Positions 7,673-22,689 of a stretch of DNA of 58,494 bases are shown piece by piece (position 1 is the first letter of the stretch; every line of letters starts with the position of its first letter). The notes below the pieces were generated by a model. The model saw only the letters and a program-made list of their open reading frames with translations. It ran no database searches and was not told the origin of the DNA. The DNA is taken from NCBI GenBank assembly GCA_017441065.1, contig JAFSAI010000004.1, positions 1 through 58,494 on the forward strand, given 5' to 3'. Made by a program: the position numbers and the translations under genes. The DNA is from Bacilli bacterium. Its GTDB lineage: Bacteria > Bacillota_I > Bacilli_A > RF39 > UBA660.

Positions 7673-7703
7673 AAAGTTAGTTCATTATTTTGAACTAACT
7701 TTT
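7673..7703 (-). terminator. Terminator of the Cys-rich repeat gene
   Basis: AAAAGTTAGTTCA and TGAACTAACTTTT arms, 13 bp, with T-rich DNA following on the minus strand. Confidence 0.75.
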
Positions 7704-9499
7704 CTTGTTTCTCCTGTTCTTTCCCAACCATCTAGGCTAGTTTCAGTACTCCATTTATATTTATATTTAGTTACTGTTTTTGTTGATTTTGTTGCTGCTA
7801 CTGAAGTAGTAGAACCTTTAGTACATTTTGCACTTGATCCAATTCCTACTTTTGTATAACCACTAGCACAAGTATATGTAGTAGATTTTGTAGCATCTAT
7901 AGTAGAACTTCCTGTAGATATACATTTAGTTCCATTTTTAGTATATCCTTTTGGACAACTATAAGTAGTTGTTTTAGTTGGATTTACTGTTTCTTTAGTA
8001 GTTTTTTGACATTTAGTACCATTTAATACATAACCACTTTCGCAATAATATTTTTTAGTTTCTGTTGCATTTTTAGTTTCTGTATTAGTTTTAGTTTTAG
8101 TACATTTTGTACCACTTAATGTATAACCACTAGCACAACTATAAGTTGTATTAGCAGTAGCATTCTTAGTATCAGTACTAGAAGTAGTCTTAGTACATTT
8201 AATACCATTTAATGAATATCCACTAGGACAACTATAAGTTGTTTTTGGAGTAGCATCTACATCTTTATAAGATGATTTAGTACAATAATATTTATAATAT
8301 GTTCTTGTACATCCGCTGTATGTTGAACAAGCTTCTGTATAAGATCCACTATAAGAACATCCGTTGTATGTTTTTCCTTTATATGTTACATAACTTTGAT
8401 AGTATGAATTTGTAGAATTGATACGACAATATTTTCCATTAACTAAAGTACCTTTTGAACAACTATAAGTTGTATTAGCAGTAGCATTCTTAGTATCAGT
8501 ACTAGAAGTAGTCTTAGTACATTTAGTACCATTTAATGAATATCCACTAGGACAACTATAAGTTGTTTTTGGAGTAGCATTTTTAGTTTCTGTACTAGTA
8601 GTAGTTTTAGTACATTTAGTACCACTTAATGTATAACCACTAGGACAACTATATGTTGTAGTATATTTTGCATTTACAGATTCATTACTTGTTTTATAAC
8701 ACTTAGTATTTGAACCACTACCAGATTTTATATAACCACTAGGACAACTATAAGTAGTTGTTTTAGTAGCATCTATTGTACTTGTTTTAGTTTTAGTACA
8801 TTTAGTACCGTTTTTAGTATATCCAGAAGGACAACTATATGTTACATTTTTAGTAGCGTTTATTGTTTCGCTATCTGATTTTACACATTTTGTATTTGAA
8901 CCACTACCAGATTTAGTGTAACCACTAGGACAACTATAAACTGTTTCAGTAGCTTTATAAGCTTGTTTATATTGATATTCAATAGTAGTTTTTACTGGTT
9001 CACAAGTATTACTTTCACATAATTGATTACATCCTAATTCGATAGTAGTTTTTGCAACTTCTTTACCACAAACTAGAGTAGTAGTCATTGTGTATTTACC
9101 ATTATCATTTTTTGCTGTAACATAACTTGCTTCTGTATCACAAGTACTATTACCATATGAGAATGGTAAAATTAAACCTTTATCAATTAATTCTTGTAAA
9201 GTATATTTTATTGTCTTATTAGTAGCTGGTAATTCACTAACTAAGAAATATTCTTTAGCAGTATCATGGAAATATCTATAATTATCTATAAAAATTTCGG
9301 AATATGAGTTTGAGTTTTTTAATGTTTCTGTAACATTATTGTTAGGTTCATTTCCATAATCTACATTAATTGAGTTTGAATTATTTCTTGTGAATAACCA
9401 AATAATTAGGAAAATAACTGCAGCAACTGCTAAAATTAGTAGTCCTTTTTTAATTACGCTTCCCCAATCAATATTTCTTCTTGGTTCTTCTGTATACAT
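7685..9499 (-). CDS. Membrane-anchored Cys-rich tandem-repeat surface protein
   Basis: 604 aa. A short cytoplasmic tail (MYTEEPRRNIDWGS) precedes a single membrane helix at about 17-38, giving an N-in, C-out layout. An N-terminal globular part carries a few Cys (STCDTEASYV, GCNQLCESNTCEP). From about residue 178 there are ten copies of a roughly 30-residue unit, TTYSCPSGYTLSGTKCTKT with Ser/Thr-rich linkers, plus one enlarged unit in the middle. Each unit has two Cys about 10-15 residues apart, suggesting one disulfide per unit. The C-terminus is a basic KYKYKWS segment. I know of no function. A stalk or adhesin is the natural guess. It starts 1 bp after the stop of the coiled-coil gene, so the two form an operon. 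Confidence 0.75.
   Translation of the reverse strand: MYTEEPRRNIDWGSVIKKGLLILAVAAVIFLIIWLFTRNNSNSINVDYGNEPNNNVTETLKNSNSYSEIFIDNYRYFHDTAKEYFLVSELPATNKTIKYTLQELIDKGLILPFSYGNSTCDTEASYVTAKNDNGKYTMTTTLVCGKEVAKTTIELGCNQLCESNTCEPVKTTIEYQYKQAYKATETVYSCPSGYTKSGSGSNTKCVKSDSETINATKNVTYSCPSGYTKNGTKCTKTKTSTIDATKTTTYSCPSGYIKSGSGSNTKCYKTSNESVNAKYTTTYSCPSGYTLSGTKCTKTTTSTETKNATPKTTYSCPSGYSLNGTKCTKTTSSTDTKNATANTTYSCSKGTLVNGKYCRINSTNSYYQSYVTYKGKTYNGCSYSGSYTEACSTYSGCTRTYYKYYCTKSSYKDVDATPKTTYSCPSGYSLNGIKCTKTTSSTDTKNATANTTYSCASGYTLSGTKCTKTKTNTETKNATETKKYYCESGYVLNGTKCQKTTKETVNPTKTTTYSCPKGYTKNGTKCISTGSSTIDATKSTTYTCASGYTKVGIGSSAKCTKGSTTSVAATKSTKTVTKYKYKWSTETSLDGWERTGETRKVSSK
8250..8960 (-). repeat. Coding tandem repeats in the Cys-rich gene
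   Basis: Nearly identical DNA stretches recur within the gene. For example, the blocks at 8135-8240 and 8463-8570 differ at very few bases. This is the kind of array that grows and shrinks by recombination. Confidence 0.6.
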
Positions 9500-12951: not shown

Positions 12952-14637
12952 ATGAAAAATAAAAGAAGAAGATTTTATAACATAGCAATAGTATGCTTAG
13001 TAGTAATTGAAAGTATATTTATTTATCTATCATATAGATCATTTGGTAATAAAGAAATGATTTTGGATGAAGTTAATTTAACAGCTGGAAAGCCGGTTGA
13101 AAAAGATAATTTATTTGCTTTTATGATAGAACAAGAAAATGGCGAATATGTAAAAAGTGATTTAGATACTTGGCCAACTGATATGGTTTTCAATGCTGCT
13201 AAATCAGGGTGTATTGATGCTGATGGTAATACAATAGAAGGTGCATTAGTTTTTGATAATACAACACATATGGCAACATTAACTACTAATGCAACTGCAT
13301 ATTGTTATTTATATTTCAGTATTGATATGGCATTTACTTTCTATTTAGGAGGAAGTGATAATCCATCTCATACTTCAAGTACTGAAACACCGGTATATTT
13401 AAATTGGGATGCAACTGATGTAGTAGAATATTGTGTAACTAATACAGTAGGTACTGATAATTGTACATGGAAAACAGTTTCATCTAAACCAACTACAGGA
13501 ATTCATACATTAACTAGTGGTGATGATGTTAAAATAGCATATGCATATCTTAAAGATGAAGATGGCGCTATTTCAAAAAGAGTTCCGGATAGAATTATAT
13601 TAGATACAACAATTCCTGTTGTAACGAGTTTAACTAATACAGGTTATGGATTTGATTATATATCAGTACAAGTATCAGGAGCAGATGAAAGTGGTGGTAT
13701 TGCGAAATTTTATTATAAAATTGGTGATGGTGATTACGTTGCAAGTACTACAAATAGTTATAAATTTAGTGGTTTAACTCATGGTAATAGTTACGATGTA
13801 AGTGTATATATTGAGGATGTAGCTGGTAATAAGTCAGCAGTTGTTACAAATACATATTCTACTAAATCTAATGGTTTAGGAACAGCAATAGAAGCAGGAA
13901 TGTATAGATATCAAGGAACAGATGCAATGAACTATATATGTTTTGGTACTACAGTAAAAAGTGAATGTGTAGGAAAGACAGATGCATATATGTACAGAAT
14001 AATCGGAATAAGACCAAATGGTCAAATGAAATTAATCAAAAAAGAAGCACTAAATACTGGAGTAAAATGGTGGAGTGATTATACAACAGACGTAACATGG
14101 CCAAATAGTTTAATATATACAACAATAAACGGAAATGAATTCTTGTTAAGCGAAACATATGTGCCAACAGGATGGGAAAGTAAAATAGCAACAACAAGTT
14201 GGTATTATGGAGATACAACAAATAGTGGATCATATAAAGGAGAAACAATGTATCCAATAGAAAACCCATTCGGAGAATCAACAGCATCAAATAGATTCAC
14301 AAATACAGTAAGTGCTAAAATAGGGTTAATGTATATACATGATTATTACTATGCATATGCATCAGGCGGAGCCCCAGGAAGTTATAGTAATGCGAAAACA
14401 GCATGGATACATATGAGCAAAAACGATAGTGGAGCCCCATCAAGTTATGAATGGACAATGTCGCGTTACGGTTTGTATAGCGGTTATTACCGTGCGTGGG
14501 GTGTGCTTTCGGGCGGTGATGTCTTTAGGTATTATTTGATTTATGCTTATTCGGTTCGCCCAGTCTTCTATCTGACATCCGATGTAGAGATAATAGGTGG
14601 AACAGGAACAATAGATGATCCATTCTTAATAAGTTAG
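12952..14637 (+). CDS. DGR target protein 1, membrane-anchored with hypervariable C-terminal domain
   Basis: 561 aa with ribosome site GAAGGAGAG. Layout: a membrane anchor (about 8-27), the shared N-terminal domain (to about 125), an Ig-like unit beginning FTFYLGGSDNPSHT (about 126-210), a fibronectin-III-like unit (about 213-303), then the C-terminal domain shared by all paralogs (MYRYQGTDAMNYICFGT, MYRIIGI, LMYIHDYYYAYASGG). The last 60 residues hold the variable repeat at DNA 14463-14563, then SVRPVFYLTSDV. In this gene all ten AAT codons of template TR2 have become other codons (six Tyr, and one each of Gly, Leu, Phe and Ile), giving a ligand-facing surface rich in aromatics. Known DGR targets use a C-type-lectin fold for this. 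That fold is inferred here. The protein likely displays a changeable binding site on the cell surface. Confidence 0.9.
   Translation: MKNKRRRFYNIAIVCLVVIESIFIYLSYRSFGNKEMILDEVNLTAGKPVEKDNLFAFMIEQENGEYVKSDLDTWPTDMVFNAAKSGCIDADGNTIEGALVFDNTTHMATLTTNATAYCYLYFSIDMAFTFYLGGSDNPSHTSSTETPVYLNWDATDVVEYCVTNTVGTDNCTWKTVSSKPTTGIHTLTSGDDVKIAYAYLKDEDGAISKRVPDRIILDTTIPVVTSLTNTGYGFDYISVQVSGADESGGIAKFYYKIGDGDYVASTTNSYKFSGLTHGNSYDVSVYIEDVAGNKSAVVTNTYSTKSNGLGTAIEAGMYRYQGTDAMNYICFGTTVKSECVGKTDAYMYRIIGIRPNGQMKLIKKEALNTGVKWWSDYTTDVTWPNSLIYTTINGNEFLLSETYVPTGWESKIATTSWYYGDTTNSGSYKGETMYPIENPFGESTASNRFTNTVSAKIGLMYIHDYYYAYASGGAPGSYSNAKTAWIHMSKNDSGAPSSYEWTMSRYGLYSGYYRAWGVLSGGDVFRYYLIYAYSVRPVFYLTSDVEIIGGTGTIDDPFLIS
14463..14563 (+). 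repeat. DGR variable repeat VR1
   Basis: This 101-bp stretch aligns without gaps to TR2 (15724-15824). There are 14 differences, all at template A: ten to T, three to G and one to C. No other base differs. It sits in frame near the 3' end of the target gene, the classic VR position. The shared 3' edge is TCGGTTCGCCCAG. Beyond it VR1 and the template differ (TCTTCTATC against CCCACTATA), the expected contrast between the homing-initiation site and its template version. Confidence 0.95.
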
Positions 14638-14648
14638 AAGATTTCAAA

Positions 14649-14681
14649 ATCGCCCAGGGTGGCATTTGGCGCCCAGGCGAT
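14649..14681 (+). other. Post-VR hairpin 1
   Basis: An imperfect hairpin starts 11 nt after the stop of the target gene. ATCGCC (14649-14654) pairs with GGCGAT (14676-14681), and GGGTG (14657-14661) pairs with CGCCC (14670-14674). The left half (ATCGCCCAGGGTGGCATTTGG) is repeated exactly after the second target at about 22701. In the Bordetella phage DGR a hairpin just downstream of VR raises homing efficiency. A like role here is inference. Confidence 0.6.
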
Positions 14682-14729: not shown

Positions 14730-15003
14730 TATAATAGATGTAGGTAATCTTGATAAAGAATTTACGCGTTACGGTGGCTCTAGTAGTTTCAATGCGTGGA
14801 ATGTGAATTCGAACGGTAATGTCAATAACAATAATTTGACGAATACGAATTCGGTTCGCCCAGCCCACTATAACTTGAATGATAGTATGGCTAAGGTTAT
14901 ACTTTTGGGAAGATAGAGGACAAAGATTATCTAGGAATTTTATTCCAAATTAAAAACGGAGATGGTTTATTTTACGAAATAACCTGTTACTCCGTTATTT
15001 TTT
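14730..15003 (+). ncRNA. DGR template RNA 1 (TR1 unit)
   Basis: An independent transcription unit with a TATAAT box at 14730-14735. RNA likely starts near 14742 and ends in a T-run at about 14997-15003. The template core is 14766-14863 (98 bp) and is flanked by the same GCGTTACGG and TCGGTTCGCCCAG ends as the VRs. The 3' part is a structured tail shared with TR2. It has a GGAAT/ATTCC hairpin (14934-14946). A terminal stem follows, with outer pairs AACGGAG/CTCCGTT and inner pairs GGT/ACC plus TATTT/AAATA around a TACG loop with one bulged T. Translation of the core gives many Asn codons (13 AAT or AAC), which are safe to randomise because changes at their adenines cannot create stops. No VR in this window derives from TR1. 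Confidence 0.88.
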
Positions 15004-15020
15004 GTGGAAAATTTTATTAG

Positions 15021-15068
15021 AAAAAAAGGAAATTAAAGAAAAAAGTTGTAAATATATATATGAGGAGG
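15021..15068 (+). promoter_or_regulatory. Shared accessory-gene upstream block (copy before the CdiA-C-like gene)
   Basis: An A-run, GGAAAT, then AAAGAAAAAAGTT and an AT-rich stretch. The first half is nearly identical to the blocks before the YhcG, ORF6N and KilA-N genes in this window. The end differs: GAGGAGG in place of GTGAAAGG. Confidence 0.55.
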
Positions 15069-15090
15069 TATTGATGTATGAAATTAAATA

Positions 15091-15627
15091 ATGAATAAAA
15101 ATTATATAGATGTAACAAAAGAATGGTTAAGGGAAGCTATACCTAATAGTCATAAAGTAGAAGAACAATTATATTATGAATCTGATGGTGTCAAATATGA
15201 AGTAGATGGTAAAAAAGTTGTATTAGACTATTCAAAAAAAGAAAGAGAAGTAGCTGAGTGGTTAGAAAATACTTTTGGTGGAGAAATAAAAATGATACCT
15301 AGAGTAAATTATCCTAAAAATATAATGACTCAAGATTATATTTTTAGAGGTATGAAATTTGATTTAAAAATAATAATGGGAAATGGAAATAAAACAATAG
15401 ATTCTGCATTAAAAAGTAAAAAAAATCAAGCTACTAATTTTATTTTGGATATAAGTAAAACTACATTGCCTTTAGAAAAAGTGAAAAATCAAATACAAAA
15501 GATTTATAGTTCTTATAATAGATTGTGGTTAAATATTATAATTTTAAAAGATGATAATAAATTAATATGCGTTTATAAAAGAAAAAAGAAGTTGACCACC
15601 AGTCCCAACAATATGGACCAAGATTAA
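15091..15627 (+). CDS. CdiA C-terminal-like (tRNA nuclease fold) protein between the two TRs
   Basis: 178 aa, soluble. From about residue 50 it resembles stand-alone CdiA-C-type nuclease domains: EREVAEWLENTFGGEIKMIPRV, then the DYIFRGMKFDLK core and KKNQATNFILDIS. These belong to contact-dependent toxins and phage head-associated proteins. The assignment rests on memory of the family pattern. No immunity gene is evident next to it. The ribosome site GAGGAGG ends at 15068, too far from the ATG. A five-codon mini-ORF (15074-15091) ends in TAATG and overlaps the start codon, so translation probably depends on reinitiation. It shares the upstream block of the palindrome-bearing genes. Its last codons lie inside a terminator hairpin (AAAGAAGTT with AACTTCTTT). 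Confidence 0.6.
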   Translation: MNKNYIDVTKEWLREAIPNSHKVEEQLYYESDGVKYEVDGKKVVLDYSKKEREVAEWLENTFGGEIKMIPRVNYPKNIMTQDYIFRGMKFDLKIIMGNGNKTIDSALKSKKNQATNFILDISKTTLPLEKVKNQIQKIYSSYNRLWLNIIILKDDNKLICVYKRKKKLTTSPNNMDQD

Positions 15628-15689
15628 CTTCTTTGTAATTATATTATATGATTTTTAACAAAAATATGCAATGAATTTTTAAATTATTA

Positions 15690-15975
15690 TATAATTATGA
15701 TAGGTAGTCTTGAAAAATGATATGCGTTACGGTTTGAATAGCGGTAATTACCGTGCGTGGAATGTGAATTCGGACGGTGATGTCAATAGGAATAATTTGA
15801 ATAATGCTAATTCGGTTCGCCCAGCCCACTATAACTTGAATGATAGTATGGTTATGATTATACTTTTGGGAAGATAGAGGACAAAGATTATCTAGGATAT
15901 ATTTATCCGAATTAGAAATGGAGATGGCTAATTTTAAGAAATTGCCTAGATACTCCATTATTTTATTTGGCAATA
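15690..15975 (+). ncRNA. DGR template RNA 2 (TR2 unit)
   Basis: A second template unit with a TATAAT box at 15690-15695 and a likely start near 15702. The template core is 15724-15824 (101 bp), the exact donor of VR1 apart from adenine sites. The core reads in frame as RYGLNSGNYRAWNVNSDG and so on, with ten AAT codons. The tail has the same fold as TR1 with changed bases but kept pairing: GGATA/TATCC (15895-15908), outer AATGGAG/CTCCATT (15917-15923 and 15953-15959), inner GGC/GCC and AATTT/AAATT with the same bulged T and a TAAG loop. The T-tract after the stem is weak (TTATTTTATTT), so some read-through into the RT operon is possible. Confidence 0.92.
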
Positions 15976-16082: not shown

Positions 16083-16472
16083 GTGGTCAAAATAAAAAAA
16101 GAGTTAATTGAACTCAGAAAATCTGGCAAATTTTATAATTCTTTTGGTGATGATGCGATAATTTTACATTACCTTATGGGATATAAAATAGTAGCAGAAA
16201 AAGGAGGCGTTGGGTTTCCTGAAACTGCTTTTAATAAAGTTATAAATGCTTTGGAAGATGAAGAGATATCTTACAAAGTATATGAAAAAGATAATATTAT
16301 TGCAGAAAAAGACTTTAAGAAATTAAATAGTTATAAAAGTATTTTAAAAAAAGGAATAAGTGAATTATCTGTAGAAGAAAGATTTAATAAAATTGAAAAG
16401 AGAATACGTGAGTTAAATGCTAAAGAGCTTGACTATGTTCTTGAAGTAATAGAGAATGCAATATCACACTGA
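16083..16472 (+). CDS. DGR accessory protein resembling MutS domain I
   Basis: 129 aa from a GTG (GTGGTCAAAATA). The segment FYNSFGDDAIILHYLMGYKIVAEKGGVGFPETAFNKVINALEDE follows the pattern of the MutS N-terminal mismatch-recognition domain (GDDA, a gly-phe-pro turn, a helix, then a strand ending ISYKVYEKD). A helical C-terminal tail follows (from about 85). MutS-domain-I-like proteins are known DGR accessories in some lineages. The role may be binding TR-VR mispairs or the template RNA. It opens the operon with avd and the RT. Similarity is judged by eye only. Confidence 0.6.
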   Translation: MVKIKKELIELRKSGKFYNSFGDDAIILHYLMGYKIVAEKGGVGFPETAFNKVINALEDEEISYKVYEKDNIIAEKDFKKLNSYKSILKKGISELSVEERFNKIEKRIRELNAKELDYVLEVIENAISH

Positions 16473-16494
16473 AAAATTTTTAATAATAAAAAAC

Positions 16495-16812
16495 ATGAAA
16501 AAATTTATATTAGGATTAGAAACCTTATTGGTTAACTTTCCTAAAAAAGAATTTTTAACAAAAGATATGATATATAAAGATGCATTAAAAGTTTTAGAAT
16601 TAGTATATGTTGCGAATGATATAGAAGATTTGAAAGATAAAAGAAATATACAAGTAGAAATATTAGGTAAACTTAATATGCTTGATTTTTATTTAGAAAG
16701 AGCTTATAAAAAGAAATATATAAATGAAAAGCAATGTATGGCTAAATCTAATGAATTAGAACAAATAAGTAAAATGGTATACAAGTGGATAAAAAGTGAA
16801 AGAGTATGCTAA
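16495..16812 (+). CDS. avd: Avd-like four-helix-bundle DGR accessory protein
   Basis: 105 aa from the ATG at 16495. The upstream residues of the longer frame overlap the MutS-like gene and look spurious. The sequence is almost all helix: GLETLLVNFPKKEFLTKDMIYKDALKVLELVYVAND, LKDKRNIQVEILGKLNMLDFYLERAYKK, then NEKQCMAKSNELEQISKMVYKWIKSE. Length, basic charge (many Lys), the order of helices and the closing WIK segment fit the Avd family. Avd forms a pentameric barrel that binds the RT and template RNA and is needed for cDNA synthesis. Its 3' end overlaps the RT start by 17 bp, a typical DGR arrangement. Confidence 0.85.
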   Translation: MKKFILGLETLLVNFPKKEFLTKDMIYKDALKVLELVYVANDIEDLKDKRNIQVEILGKLNMLDFYLERAYKKKYINEKQCMAKSNELEQISKMVYKWIKSERVC

Positions 16813-17923
16813 TTTAAATACTATTTTAGATTTATTTGAATCTGAAATATCTAAAAATGTAAAAAATAAACATAAAGTATATATGTTTGAAAAAAATAAG
16901 TTTCAAAATATAAATCATATAATAAATGTTCTCCAAAGTGGTAATTATAATGGTGGAAAATATAATATATTTTTAATTAAAGAACCTAAACATCGGATTG
17001 TAATGGCTTTAGATATTAGTGATAAAATAATAAATCATTTTATAGCAAGATATGTTTTAGAAAAGAAATTAACTAAATATTTAGATCCAAGAAATATTGC
17101 AACTAGAAAAAATATGGGGACAGATTGTGGAATAAAAATGTTGAAAAAATATTTGGAATTAAATAAAAAATATGGCGAGTTTTATATTGCTAAATTAGAT
17201 ATTAGTAAATATTTTTATTCAATAGATCATGAAGTATTAAAAGAATTAGTTAGAAATAAATTAGATGAAGATGAATATAAATTTTTATGTTTAATAATAG
17301 ATAGTACAAATAGAGAATATATTAATTTAAAGATTCAAGATATTAAAGATAAGTATTTAGATAAACATCCAAAATTTGAAAAAGAAATGAATGCAATACC
17401 ATTTTATAATTATGGCAAGGGATTACCTATAGGTAATATGACTAGTCAATTTTTATCAATATTTTATTTATATGAATTAGATCATTATATAGTTCATAAT
17501 TTACATATCAAACATTATATTAGATATATGGACGATTTTGTTTTAATTCATCATGATAAAAAAGTGTTAGAGAATGCTGTAAAAGAAATTGAATTTATAT
17601 TAAGTAATAAATATAAGTTGAAACTTAATTCAAAAAAGACTAAAATAGTGTCAGCTTCTGAAGGATTTTCTTTTTTGGGGTATACTTATAAAGTAATTAA
17701 TAAAAAAACAATAGTTAAATTACGTAAAGAAAGTTATGAAAGAATAAAAAAGAGAATAAAAGAAGTATATTATATGTATGAATCAGGATTTATTGATTTT
17801 AATAGTGCATTTTGTTCAGTTATGTCATATTGGTATAATAGAAAATATGGTAGTCAAATGAAAGTTCGAAGAGTAATAAATAGATATTGGTTTGATCGGG
17901 TACATAATGGGATACAAAAATAG
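16796..17923 (+). CDS. Diversity-generating retroelement reverse transcriptase
   Basis: 375 aa from a GTG inside the end of avd (translational coupling). RT motifs are in order: FLIKEPKHRIVMALDISDKIINH (motifs 1-2), AKLDISKYFYSIDH with D135 (motif 3), GLPIGNMTSQFLSIFYLYELDH at 209-230 (motif 4, with the SQ signature that sets DGR RTs apart from group II intron RTs, which have QG), YIRYMDDFVLI with YMDD at 244-247 (motif 5), LKLNSKKT (motif 6) and FSFLGYTY (motif 7). There is no maturase or HNH domain. It copies the TR RNA into cDNA, misreading adenines, and the product replaces the VR. It serves two TR units here, and by inference more elsewhere. Confidence 0.97.
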   Translation: MKEYANLNTILDLFESEISKNVKNKHKVYMFEKNKFQNINHIINVLQSGNYNGGKYNIFLIKEPKHRIVMALDISDKIINHFIARYVLEKKLTKYLDPRNIATRKNMGTDCGIKMLKKYLELNKKYGEFYIAKLDISKYFYSIDHEVLKELVRNKLDEDEYKFLCLIIDSTNREYINLKIQDIKDKYLDKHPKFEKEMNAIPFYNYGKGLPIGNMTSQFLSIFYLYELDHYIVHNLHIKHYIRYMDDFVLIHHDKKVLENAVKEIEFILSNKYKLKLNSKKTKIVSASEGFSFLGYTYKVINKKTIVKLRKESYERIKKRIKEVYYMYESGFIDFNSAFCSVMSYWYNRKYGSQMKVRRVINRYWFDRVHNGIQK

Positions 17924-21513: not shown

Positions 21514-22689
21514 ATGTATAGGAGAAGTGTACCTAAAATAGGTATAATTTTTTATGTATGTCTGCTAGTAATAGTGGAAATTTTTGCGTTATTTTTAATG
21601 TATAAAAGTAGCAATAATAAAAATGCTAATTTAGCTACAGTAGACTTAAAAGGTAATATAGTTAATAATGATATGTTTGCGATAATGTTAGAACAAAGTG
21701 ATGGAACATATAAAGAAGATAAAAGTAATACATGGCCAACAGATGGATATACATACAATGCGTCTATGTCAGGATGTATAGATATAAATGGTAATAAACT
21801 AGATGGAGTACTTACATATGATGCTACAAATAATATAGCTACAGTAGATACCGGAAATACTAGTTATTGTTATTTGTATTTTAGTATGCCAAATGCTGGA
21901 GAATATTTACTTAAAAATCCAACATCAGGATTAAATAATATAACATTAGAAGCCGGAATGTATAGATATCAAGGAACAGATGCAATGAACTATGTATGTT
22001 TCGGAACAACAGTAAAAAGCGAATGTGTAGGAAATACAGATGCATATATGTATAGAATCATAGGAATACAAGAAAATGGCCAAATGAAATTAATCAAAAA
22101 AGAAGCTCTAAATAGTACAGTACAATGGTGGAGTGATTATACAACAGATGTAACATGGCCAAATAGTTTAATATATAAGCATATAAATGATACAGAAAAT
22201 ACAAATAATTATTTAAAAAATACAACATATGTGCCAACAGGATGGGAGAGTAAAATAGCAACAACAAGTTGGAAATATGGAGATTCAACAAATAGTGGTA
22301 ATTATGATGGACCAACAATATATGCAACAGAAAATGCTTGGACAGATACAGAACCCGCAAAGATAGGATTATGGTATTTATCTGATTACTACTATGCTTA
22401 TGCAAGTGGAGGAGCACCAGGAAGTTCTAGTAATGCCGTAACAGCATGGATCCATTTAAGTAAAAATGATACAAGTGCACCAAGCACTAGTTATGAATGG
22501 ACAATGTCGCGTTGCGGTTATGATGACGATTATAGCTCTTACGGTGCGTGGGCTGTGTATTCGAGCGGTTCCTTGTATAGCAATTATTTGTATAATGCTC
22601 TTTCGGTTCGCCCAGTATTCTATCTGACATCTGATATAAGAATAACTGGAGGAACAGGAACAATAGATGATCCATTCCTAATAAGTTAG
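21514..22689 (+). CDS. DGR target protein 2, membrane-anchored with hypervariable C-terminal domain
   Basis: 391 aa. Residues about 10-29 are the anchor, then the shared N-terminal domain (NNDMFAIMLEQSDG to SYCYLYFSM). It goes straight into the C-terminal domain with no Ig-like units (MYRYQGTDAMNYVCFGT, MYRIIGIQENGQ, IGLWYLSDYYYAYASGG, SYEWTMSR). The variable repeat (22509-22615) then leads to SVRPVFYLTSDI. Long stretches match target 1 at DNA level up to and past the stop codon. The VR is 6 bp longer than VR1 and its framework differs at non-adenine sites from both templates here, so its donor TR must be elsewhere or lost. It encodes many Tyr, Ser and Asp. It lies about 3.6 kb past the RT gene. 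Confidence 0.88.
   Translation: MYRRSVPKIGIIFYVCLLVIVEIFALFLMYKSSNNKNANLATVDLKGNIVNNDMFAIMLEQSDGTYKEDKSNTWPTDGYTYNASMSGCIDINGNKLDGVLTYDATNNIATVDTGNTSYCYLYFSMPNAGEYLLKNPTSGLNNITLEAGMYRYQGTDAMNYVCFGTTVKSECVGNTDAYMYRIIGIQENGQMKLIKKEALNSTVQWWSDYTTDVTWPNSLIYKHINDTENTNNYLKNTTYVPTGWESKIATTSWKYGDSTNSGNYDGPTIYATENAWTDTEPAKIGLWYLSDYYYAYASGGAPGSSSNAVTAWIHLSKNDTSAPSTSYEWTMSRCGYDDDYSSYGAWAVYSSGSLYSNYLYNALSVRPVFYLTSDIRITGGTGTIDDPFLIS
22509..22615 (+). repeat. DGR variable repeat VR2
   Basis: 107 bp bounded by GCGTTGCGG and TCGGTTCGCCCAG. The last part (TTG TAT AAT GCT CTT TCG) matches TR2 with adenine-only changes, and TAC to TGC at the start fits too. The centre needs non-A changes and 6 extra bases against TR2 (9 against TR1). 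It is therefore a VR whose donor is not in this window. Confidence 0.8.

Follow-up and report, generated by a model that had tools for sequence, protein, structure and literature searches.

DGRs rank among the main programmed hypermutation systems known in bacteria, and most of what is directly known about their RNA comes from one phage. In BPP-1 the spacer is reported to fold and to recruit bRT-Avd; cDNA synthesis starts at the TR 3' junction from an internal spacer adenine and is ended by a motif of the avd mRNA, which lies upstream (PMC12875486). According to the excerpted accounts, the DGRs of Thiohalocapsa PB-PSB1 act in trans on remote targets (PMC10907252), and DGRs with several TRs are on record (PMC6642488).

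We analysed a stretch of 58,494 nt, here called the window, from a contig of a Bacilli bacterium. It carries a DGR with two template units, TR1 and TR2, and further units lie elsewhere in the host genome. These free-standing, multiplied template genes carry a DGR RNA with a covarying fold of its own. The coordinates of all features are collected in Table 1.

Table 1. Features of the DGR and its template RNAs in the window.
Feature	Position	Strand	Analysis or remark
VR1 in target ORF 12952-14637	14463-14571	+	
TATAAT, -10-like box upstream of TR1 leader	14730-14735	+	
H5 5' arm, leader GGTAATCTT, TR1 RNA	14743-14751	+	partner search, covariation test
TR1 up to CGGTTCGCCCAG	14752-14863	+	
H1 5' arm, TR1 (one A.A mismatch in this copy)	14865-14871	+	alignment, covariation test
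H2 hairpin, TR1, loop TAAG	14884-14903	+	alignment, loop census, RNAalifold
H1 3' arm, TR1	14913-14919	+	alignment, covariation test
ACA, TR1, near-invariant (A14920, candidate priming adenosine)	14920-14922	+	
H5 3' arm (S5), TR1, spacer AAGATTATC	14923-14931	+	partner search, covariation test, folding
Tail, TR1	14934-14996	+	
H3 hairpin, TR1 (GGAAT/ATTCC)	14934-14946	+	pair count, alignment, covariation test
H4 terminal hairpin, TR1, bulged T 14967, loop TACG	14955-14996	+	pair count, alignment, covariation test
TATAAT, -10-like box upstream of TR2 leader	15690-15695	+	
H5 5' arm, leader GGTAGTCTT, TR2 RNA	15703-15711	+	partner search, covariation test
TR2 up to CGGTTCGCCCAG, template of VR1	15712-15824	+	TR/VR comparison
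H1 5' arm, TR2	15826-15832	+	alignment, pair count
H2 hairpin, TR2, loop TATG	15845-15864	+	alignment, loop census
H1 3' arm, TR2	15874-15880	+	alignment, pair count
ACA, TR2 (A15881, candidate priming adenosine)	15881-15883	+	ACA census
H5 3' arm (S5), TR2	15884-15892	+	partner search, folding
Tail, TR2	15895-15959	+	
H3 hairpin, TR2	15895-15908	+	pair count, alignment
H4 terminal hairpin, TR2, bulged T 15929, loop TAAG	15917-15959	+	pair count, alignment
Avd, four-helix protein, fold matches BPP-1 Avd	16456-16812	+	
DGR reverse transcriptase (IGNMTSQ, YMDD)	16796-17923	+	
VR2 in target ORF 21514-22689	22506-22620	+	no clean parent TR found

The DGR Locus

The reverse transcriptase ORF matched RVT_1 (E 5e-17), and its best PDB match was BPP-1 8ub7 (E 2e-24). 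Its IGNMTSQ and YMDD sequences fit [ILV]GxxxSQ together with YxDD, which we take to be the DGR-type RT motif. The protein assigned as Avd scored below the curated Avd cut-offs when searched alone, and 23 of its 24 aligned homologues matched NF033474 at E ≤ 1e-3. Its predicted structure (pLDDT 91) matched Avd in 4dwl and 8ub7 with a TM of about 0.8; further matches were 2rld, of the S23 family, and 2gsc.

The change from TR2 to VR1 is adenine-specific: differences were found at 14 of 27 A positions and at none of the 74 non-A positions (Fisher p 4e-10). No clean parent of VR2 emerged among the TRs present; the best candidate, TR_C1, mismatched at 7 of 74 non-A positions in an ungapped comparison. 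A GC-rich hairpin lies 3' of VR1 (14649-14681; z -3.95), and no such fold was seen in the stretch after VR2 (z 0.58). A hairpin of identical predicted shape lies upstream of the units in loci L006 and L008, and both strands of the inner stem have changed between the window (GGGTG/CGCCC) and L008 (GAAGG/CCTTC). This hairpin is probably the target-side stem-loop of the DGR.

Other features of the window were an ORF between TR1 and TR2 (15091-15627) with a CdiA_C-type domain (PF18451, E 2e-15), an ORF just upstream of Avd (16083-16472) with a weak match to MutS domain I (PF01624, E 1.5e-5), and 93-base direct repeats at 8008-8971 that encode cysteine-containing repeats in the minus-strand ORF 7685-9499.

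Pairing in the Tails of the Template RNAs

An earlier note, made from the letters of the window, had claimed that the tails of TR1 and TR2 diverge in sequence and keep their pairing, with at least five compensatory pairs, a bulged T at the same place and a T-A-N-G loop in both. Our recount bore this out. The four named helix segments comprise 20 pairs, none of which is broken; 5 of the 20 differ between TR1 and TR2, each on both sides, and there is no one-sided change. The bulged T (14967 and 15929) is common to both tails, and the loops are TACG at 14973-14976 in TR1 and TAAG at 15935-15938 in TR2.

Folding of the 89-nt tails gave a z of -1.9 for both, folding of the 55-nt hairpins gave z values of -2.2 and -2.8, and the MFE structure of the 89-nt TR2 tail was a different fold. 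Single-sequence folding is weak evidence by itself, and it is the relatives that settle the tail structure. We searched the relatives for tails that had mutated without keeping their pairing, as this would speak against the claim, and 7% of the paired cells in 22 spacers were unpaired. One clearly disrupted tail was noticed, the first copy in locus L035, beside an RT with 9 in-frame stops. This locus (genome G027) is a decayed DGR, in which the RT contains 2 TAG and 7 TAA and the tail is duplicated and disrupted.

Distribution of the RNA and Its Link to the Reverse Transcriptase

A search of genome contigs with the RT retrieved 18 loci, all from uncultured Bacilli bacterium and mostly from 'Lapin' isolates. 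RT matches were present in 54 of 148 related genomes, and a search of viral contigs with the RT gave no match. A search with a profile of the TR1 and TR2 units showed that most close loci have the same unit 5' of their RT. The spacer model R1 gave 66 matches in 63 loci at E ≤ 1 and 118 matches in 98 loci, 110 of them distinct, at E ≤ 0.001. The template RNA fold is conserved in many related gut bacteria. For 27 viral stretches with a 16-base motif the best R1 match had an E of 0.16, and they were taken as chance. Rfam contained no match to the template RNAs at the gathering score and reported only two tRNAs in the window; Rfam 15 at E up to 5 gave only chance-level matches to the template RNAs.

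The RNA is linked to DGR reverse transcriptases. Among 386 genomes of the family, 41 carried the RNA, 145 the RT (E ≤ 1e-20), 38 both and 238 neither (Fisher p 8e-15), and the RNA was found in 25 of the 28 listed genomes with an RT at E < 1e-98. In 107 of the 145 RT-positive genomes no unit was found at E ≤ 1e-4 and with stricter filters, which counts against the link; these genomes may have more distant RTs or DGRs that lack this RNA, or the stricter filters may have missed their units. The RNA occurred without the RT in three genomes (G014, G461 and G473), and RVT_1 genes are present in G461 and G473. Genome G014, which is 94% complete, had no RVT_1 match, yet it contained 8 template RNA units, a further point against the link.

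The units of G014 are spread over contigs C38, C22, C4, C37, C17 and C3. Tandem arrays of template units were seen on contig C11 of G234 (L169-L171) and contig C30 of G334 (L146-L151), where the units are about 280 and 310 bases apart. In loci L060, L062, L064, L068 and L069 the template unit lies 3' of the RT gene, with a leader that overlaps or directly adjoins the stop codon of the RT.

Architecture of the Whole Template RNA

More than the tails was visible by eye in the close loci: a covarying stem directly 3' of the TR with a hairpin inside, and, in the leader, a stretch with complementarity to the spacer. A TATAAT-like box is also present upstream of most close units. The two stems of the earlier note, H3 and H4, are two of five helices in one RNA.

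H1 pairs the bases right after CGCCCAG with spacer positions +50 to +56, and the copies in the window carry one A.A mismatch. ACA follows H1 directly in 64 of 66 units, and A14920 is at +57 counted from the end of CGCCCAG. The loop of H2 was TAAG in 40, CAAG in 11, TATG in 4 and TACG in 3 of the 66 units, that of H4 was TACG in 53 and TAAG in 3, and most of these loops fit the YNMG tetraloop class. Another candidate helix, H1b (CTT/AAG), was dropped beyond the close set, where it paired poorly (39/65, 35/42 and 43/61).

H5 is a long-range helix between the leader and the spacer that brackets the TR (GGTAATCTT with AAGATTATC in TR1). We looked for partners of S5, the approximately 9 bases after ACA, in the 99 units with enough upstream DNA. 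A fully pairing upstream partner was present in 64 of these units, compared to 91 of 2,540 non-cognate and 157 of 4,947 shuffled controls. When one mismatch at most was accepted, the count rose to 96 of 99, compared to 923 of 2,540 non-cognate controls and 38% of the shuffled ones. Most partners begin with GGT and sit immediately 5' of the TR, some 90-135 nt ahead of the spacer model. H5 has changed on both sides in L113 (GGTATGCTT/AAGCATATC), L018 (GGTAGTCTT/AAGACTATC) and L011 (GGTAAGTAA/TTGCTTATC). For leader and spacer joined without the TR, the lowest-energy fold contained H5 with 11 pairs for TR1 and TR2 alike. The unconstrained leader-spacer fold replaced H1 by CCCA/TGGG in both window RNAs, which counts against the model, as does the A.A mismatch in H1.

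The tail hairpin might be an intrinsic terminator and nothing else, with pairing kept for the sake of the stem. The TR1 tail ends in ATTTTTT, and in 34 of 110 units H4 is followed by five or more T in a row, but 71 of the 110 units have no T-run longer than 3 and keep the hairpin, and a consensus scan lists neither tail as a terminator. A terminator needs neither H1, H2, H3 and H5 nor a conserved bulge, and it does not need the YNMG-type loops either, whereas the H4 loop is TACG or TAAG in 56 of 66 units. We consider it improbable that the hairpin is a terminator alone. The earlier note had assigned a terminator function in addition to others; this agrees with the units that have long T-runs but not with the larger group lacking them, nor with the result of the scan. 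The structure is selected, and it is more than a terminator.

Covariation

Alignment A2 was a plain MAFFT alignment of 22 spacers, made blind to structure. Scored with a structure drawn from one sequence, which favours paired cells over slid versions, 93.0% of the 812 cells in A2 paired, compared to 41-49% when the structure was slid by 1-3 columns and 72.8% after shuffling. Two-sided changes were found in 33 of 38 pairs (12-18 slid, mean of 22.0 shuffled), and the covariation score was 0.629 versus 0.10-0.19 for the slid versions. RNAalifold recovered H1, H2, H3 and H4 from A2 alone, and for 30 of its 35 pairs at least one sequence showed a two-sided change.

We also applied a phylogeny-aware test, an R-scape-like imitation in our own implementation (G-test with average-product correction), the null of which consisted of 200 alignments with the substitutions of each branch dealt to other columns. 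As input we used a 13-nt leader, picked only by the GGT nearest to position -116, and the structure-blind spacer alignment. Of the 110 units, 89 qualified and 66 were left after a 92% identity filter, giving 159 columns. The earlier note had predicted significant covarying pairs for R-scape, and in our test of the 66 units 19 of 12,090 column pairs reached E ≤ 0.05, all inside the model. Fourteen of them fall in the hairpins that the note had described and 5 in helices outside. By helix, there were 6 in the outer and 5 in the inner stem of H4, 3 in H2, 2 in H3 and 1 each in H1 and H5; the remaining pair, 117-145, lies across the internal loop of H4. The model contains each of the 21 best-ranked column pairs and 29 of the top 30; the exception, 88-100, extends H3, and pair 1-86 at rank 31 extends H5. 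The pairing in A2, the covariation against the tree-based null and the RNAalifold result together back the claim of a selected structure.

These data bear on two other explanations. Recent duplication or gene conversion without selection could account for the likeness of the two tails, and long identical stretches are indeed common to the TR1 and TR2 units. However, the differences between the arms of TR1 and TR2 are all paired, and covariation was significant over 66 diverged units against a null based on the tree, so we regard this explanation as extremely unlikely. Alternatively, the inverted repeats may work as a DNA cruciform in retrohoming, like the BPP-1 stem-loop 3' of the VR. The available part of one report has DGR targets bearing such hairpins (PMC3240598), and one is located 3' of VR1 at 14649-14681. 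The tails, in contrast, sit on the template side, and H5 spans the whole TR. Moreover, G.U pairs persist in H2 (columns 43-52, G-U in 62 of 66 units) and in H5 (columns 3-84, 60 of 66), which argues for RNA rather than a DNA cruciform. We therefore hold a cruciform to be very unlikely and retain the selected RNA structure as our reading.

Dispersed Template Units

In the 1.21-Mb host genome R1 detected six units, all with E < 1e-24. The window has two of them, contig C7 another two, and C1 and C37 have one each. An RVT_1 search of this genome found one gene; as the assembly is a draft of 44 contigs, a second RT may lie in a gap. Each of the four remote units has a TATAAT-like box, a leader, a TR, a spacer and a T-run. 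Two of them are near a VR-type gene and two lie between unrelated genes. The core of TR2 had 12 DNA matches in the host genome, namely six TRs and six VR-like places. Judged by sequence comparison, one remote VR, on contig C38, fits a remote template: it matched a TR on C7 at 68 of 70 non-A positions and differed at 11 of 34 A positions (p 6e-5). In 9 of the 17 genomes compared for location, there were units on contigs for which no RT match was listed.

The target protein encoded at 21514-22686 has 54 matching stretches in its own genome, many of them in genes at contig ends.

Discussion

Most likely, the larger folded RNA of which the tails are part docks the template on the mutation-making reverse transcriptase. 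We interpret TR1 and TR2 as separate small DGR RNAs with a leader-spacer bracket (H5), a primer A presented by H1, and H3 and H4 for docking and the 3' end, and we assign this reading a probability of roughly 0.78. Each RNA would consist of leader, template repeat and structured spacer. H5, the leader-spacer pairing on both sides of the TR, may limit the cDNA at the TR start. H1 would join the bases immediately 3' of the TR to a strand some 50 nt downstream, would enclose H2, and would present a conserved adenosine near the TR 3' end (A14920 or A15881) as the likely cDNA primer. H3 and H4 would complete the fold, probably offering RT-Avd a surface to dock on and forming the RNA 3' end, and H4 seems to double as a terminator in close relatives. 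The earlier note had put the priming element in the tail, which is probably the wrong place. As BPP-1 primes from an internal spacer adenine at the TR 3' junction, the matching arrangement, H1 followed by A14920 or A15881 upstream of the tail, is the likelier primer.

The single RT of the host may serve all six dispersed templates. We see an even chance that leader and folded spacer constitute a portable licence, by which any template placed between the H5 arms would become a substrate of one RT-Avd in trans, and that genomes thereby multiply template RNA genes and obtain multi-template mutagenesis from a single enzyme. Such a licence would let host genomes spread independent template genes, as with the six here, the eight in a relative and the tandem arrays elsewhere. 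A limited literature search gave no account of dispersed template RNA genes, and we recognised no description of covariation in DGR RNA in it.

An RNA of a bacterial lineage that is backed by covariation offers testable positions for priming, docking and the cDNA stop. The RNA model can detect template RNAs without detecting the RT. Many templates served by one enzyme are what engineers of targeted mutagenesis look for, and the present system would be a natural case.

We assume that the priming position of BPP-1 is A56. In the BPP-1 sequence (AY029185), the TR 3' end ATCACCT can pair with spacer positions 48-54 (AGGTGGT), two bases before A56, and this duplex surrounds the hairpin GCCAACGC-TACG-GCTTGGC. 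Compared by hand, the window RNAs and the BPP-1 DGR RNA thus share a duplex of TR end and spacer, an inner hairpin with a T-A-N-G loop and then an adenosine, the primer A in BPP-1 and its candidate counterpart here. The H1-like run of 7 in BPP-1 had a p of 0.035, uncorrected. Pairing of leader and spacer, seen here as H5, is also possible in BPP-1, where the leader run of 8 is not significant (p 0.16). The near-equality of 56 in BPP-1 and 57 here is of little weight, because the TR ends were drawn differently. R1 had no match to the BPP-1 record at E ≤ 1, and the comparison is therefore one of topology only; by this analogy BPP-1 lends modest support to the priming model. Unlike in BPP-1, where the spacing also differs, the TR RNAs of the window lie apart from avd and have their own -10-like box and terminal hairpin.

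As in Thiohalocapsa PB-PSB1, going by the excerpted report, a VR would be diversified by components elsewhere in the genome, but here the template RNAs themselves are dispersed, with six units and one RT. More than one TR is common to our DGR and the multi-TR DGRs of PMC6642488, whereas RNA structure and dispersal of TRs over contigs are not described in the available portion of that source. The kind of RNA is already known from BPP-1; what appears to be new, at least to us, is the RNA family and the dispersal of its templates.
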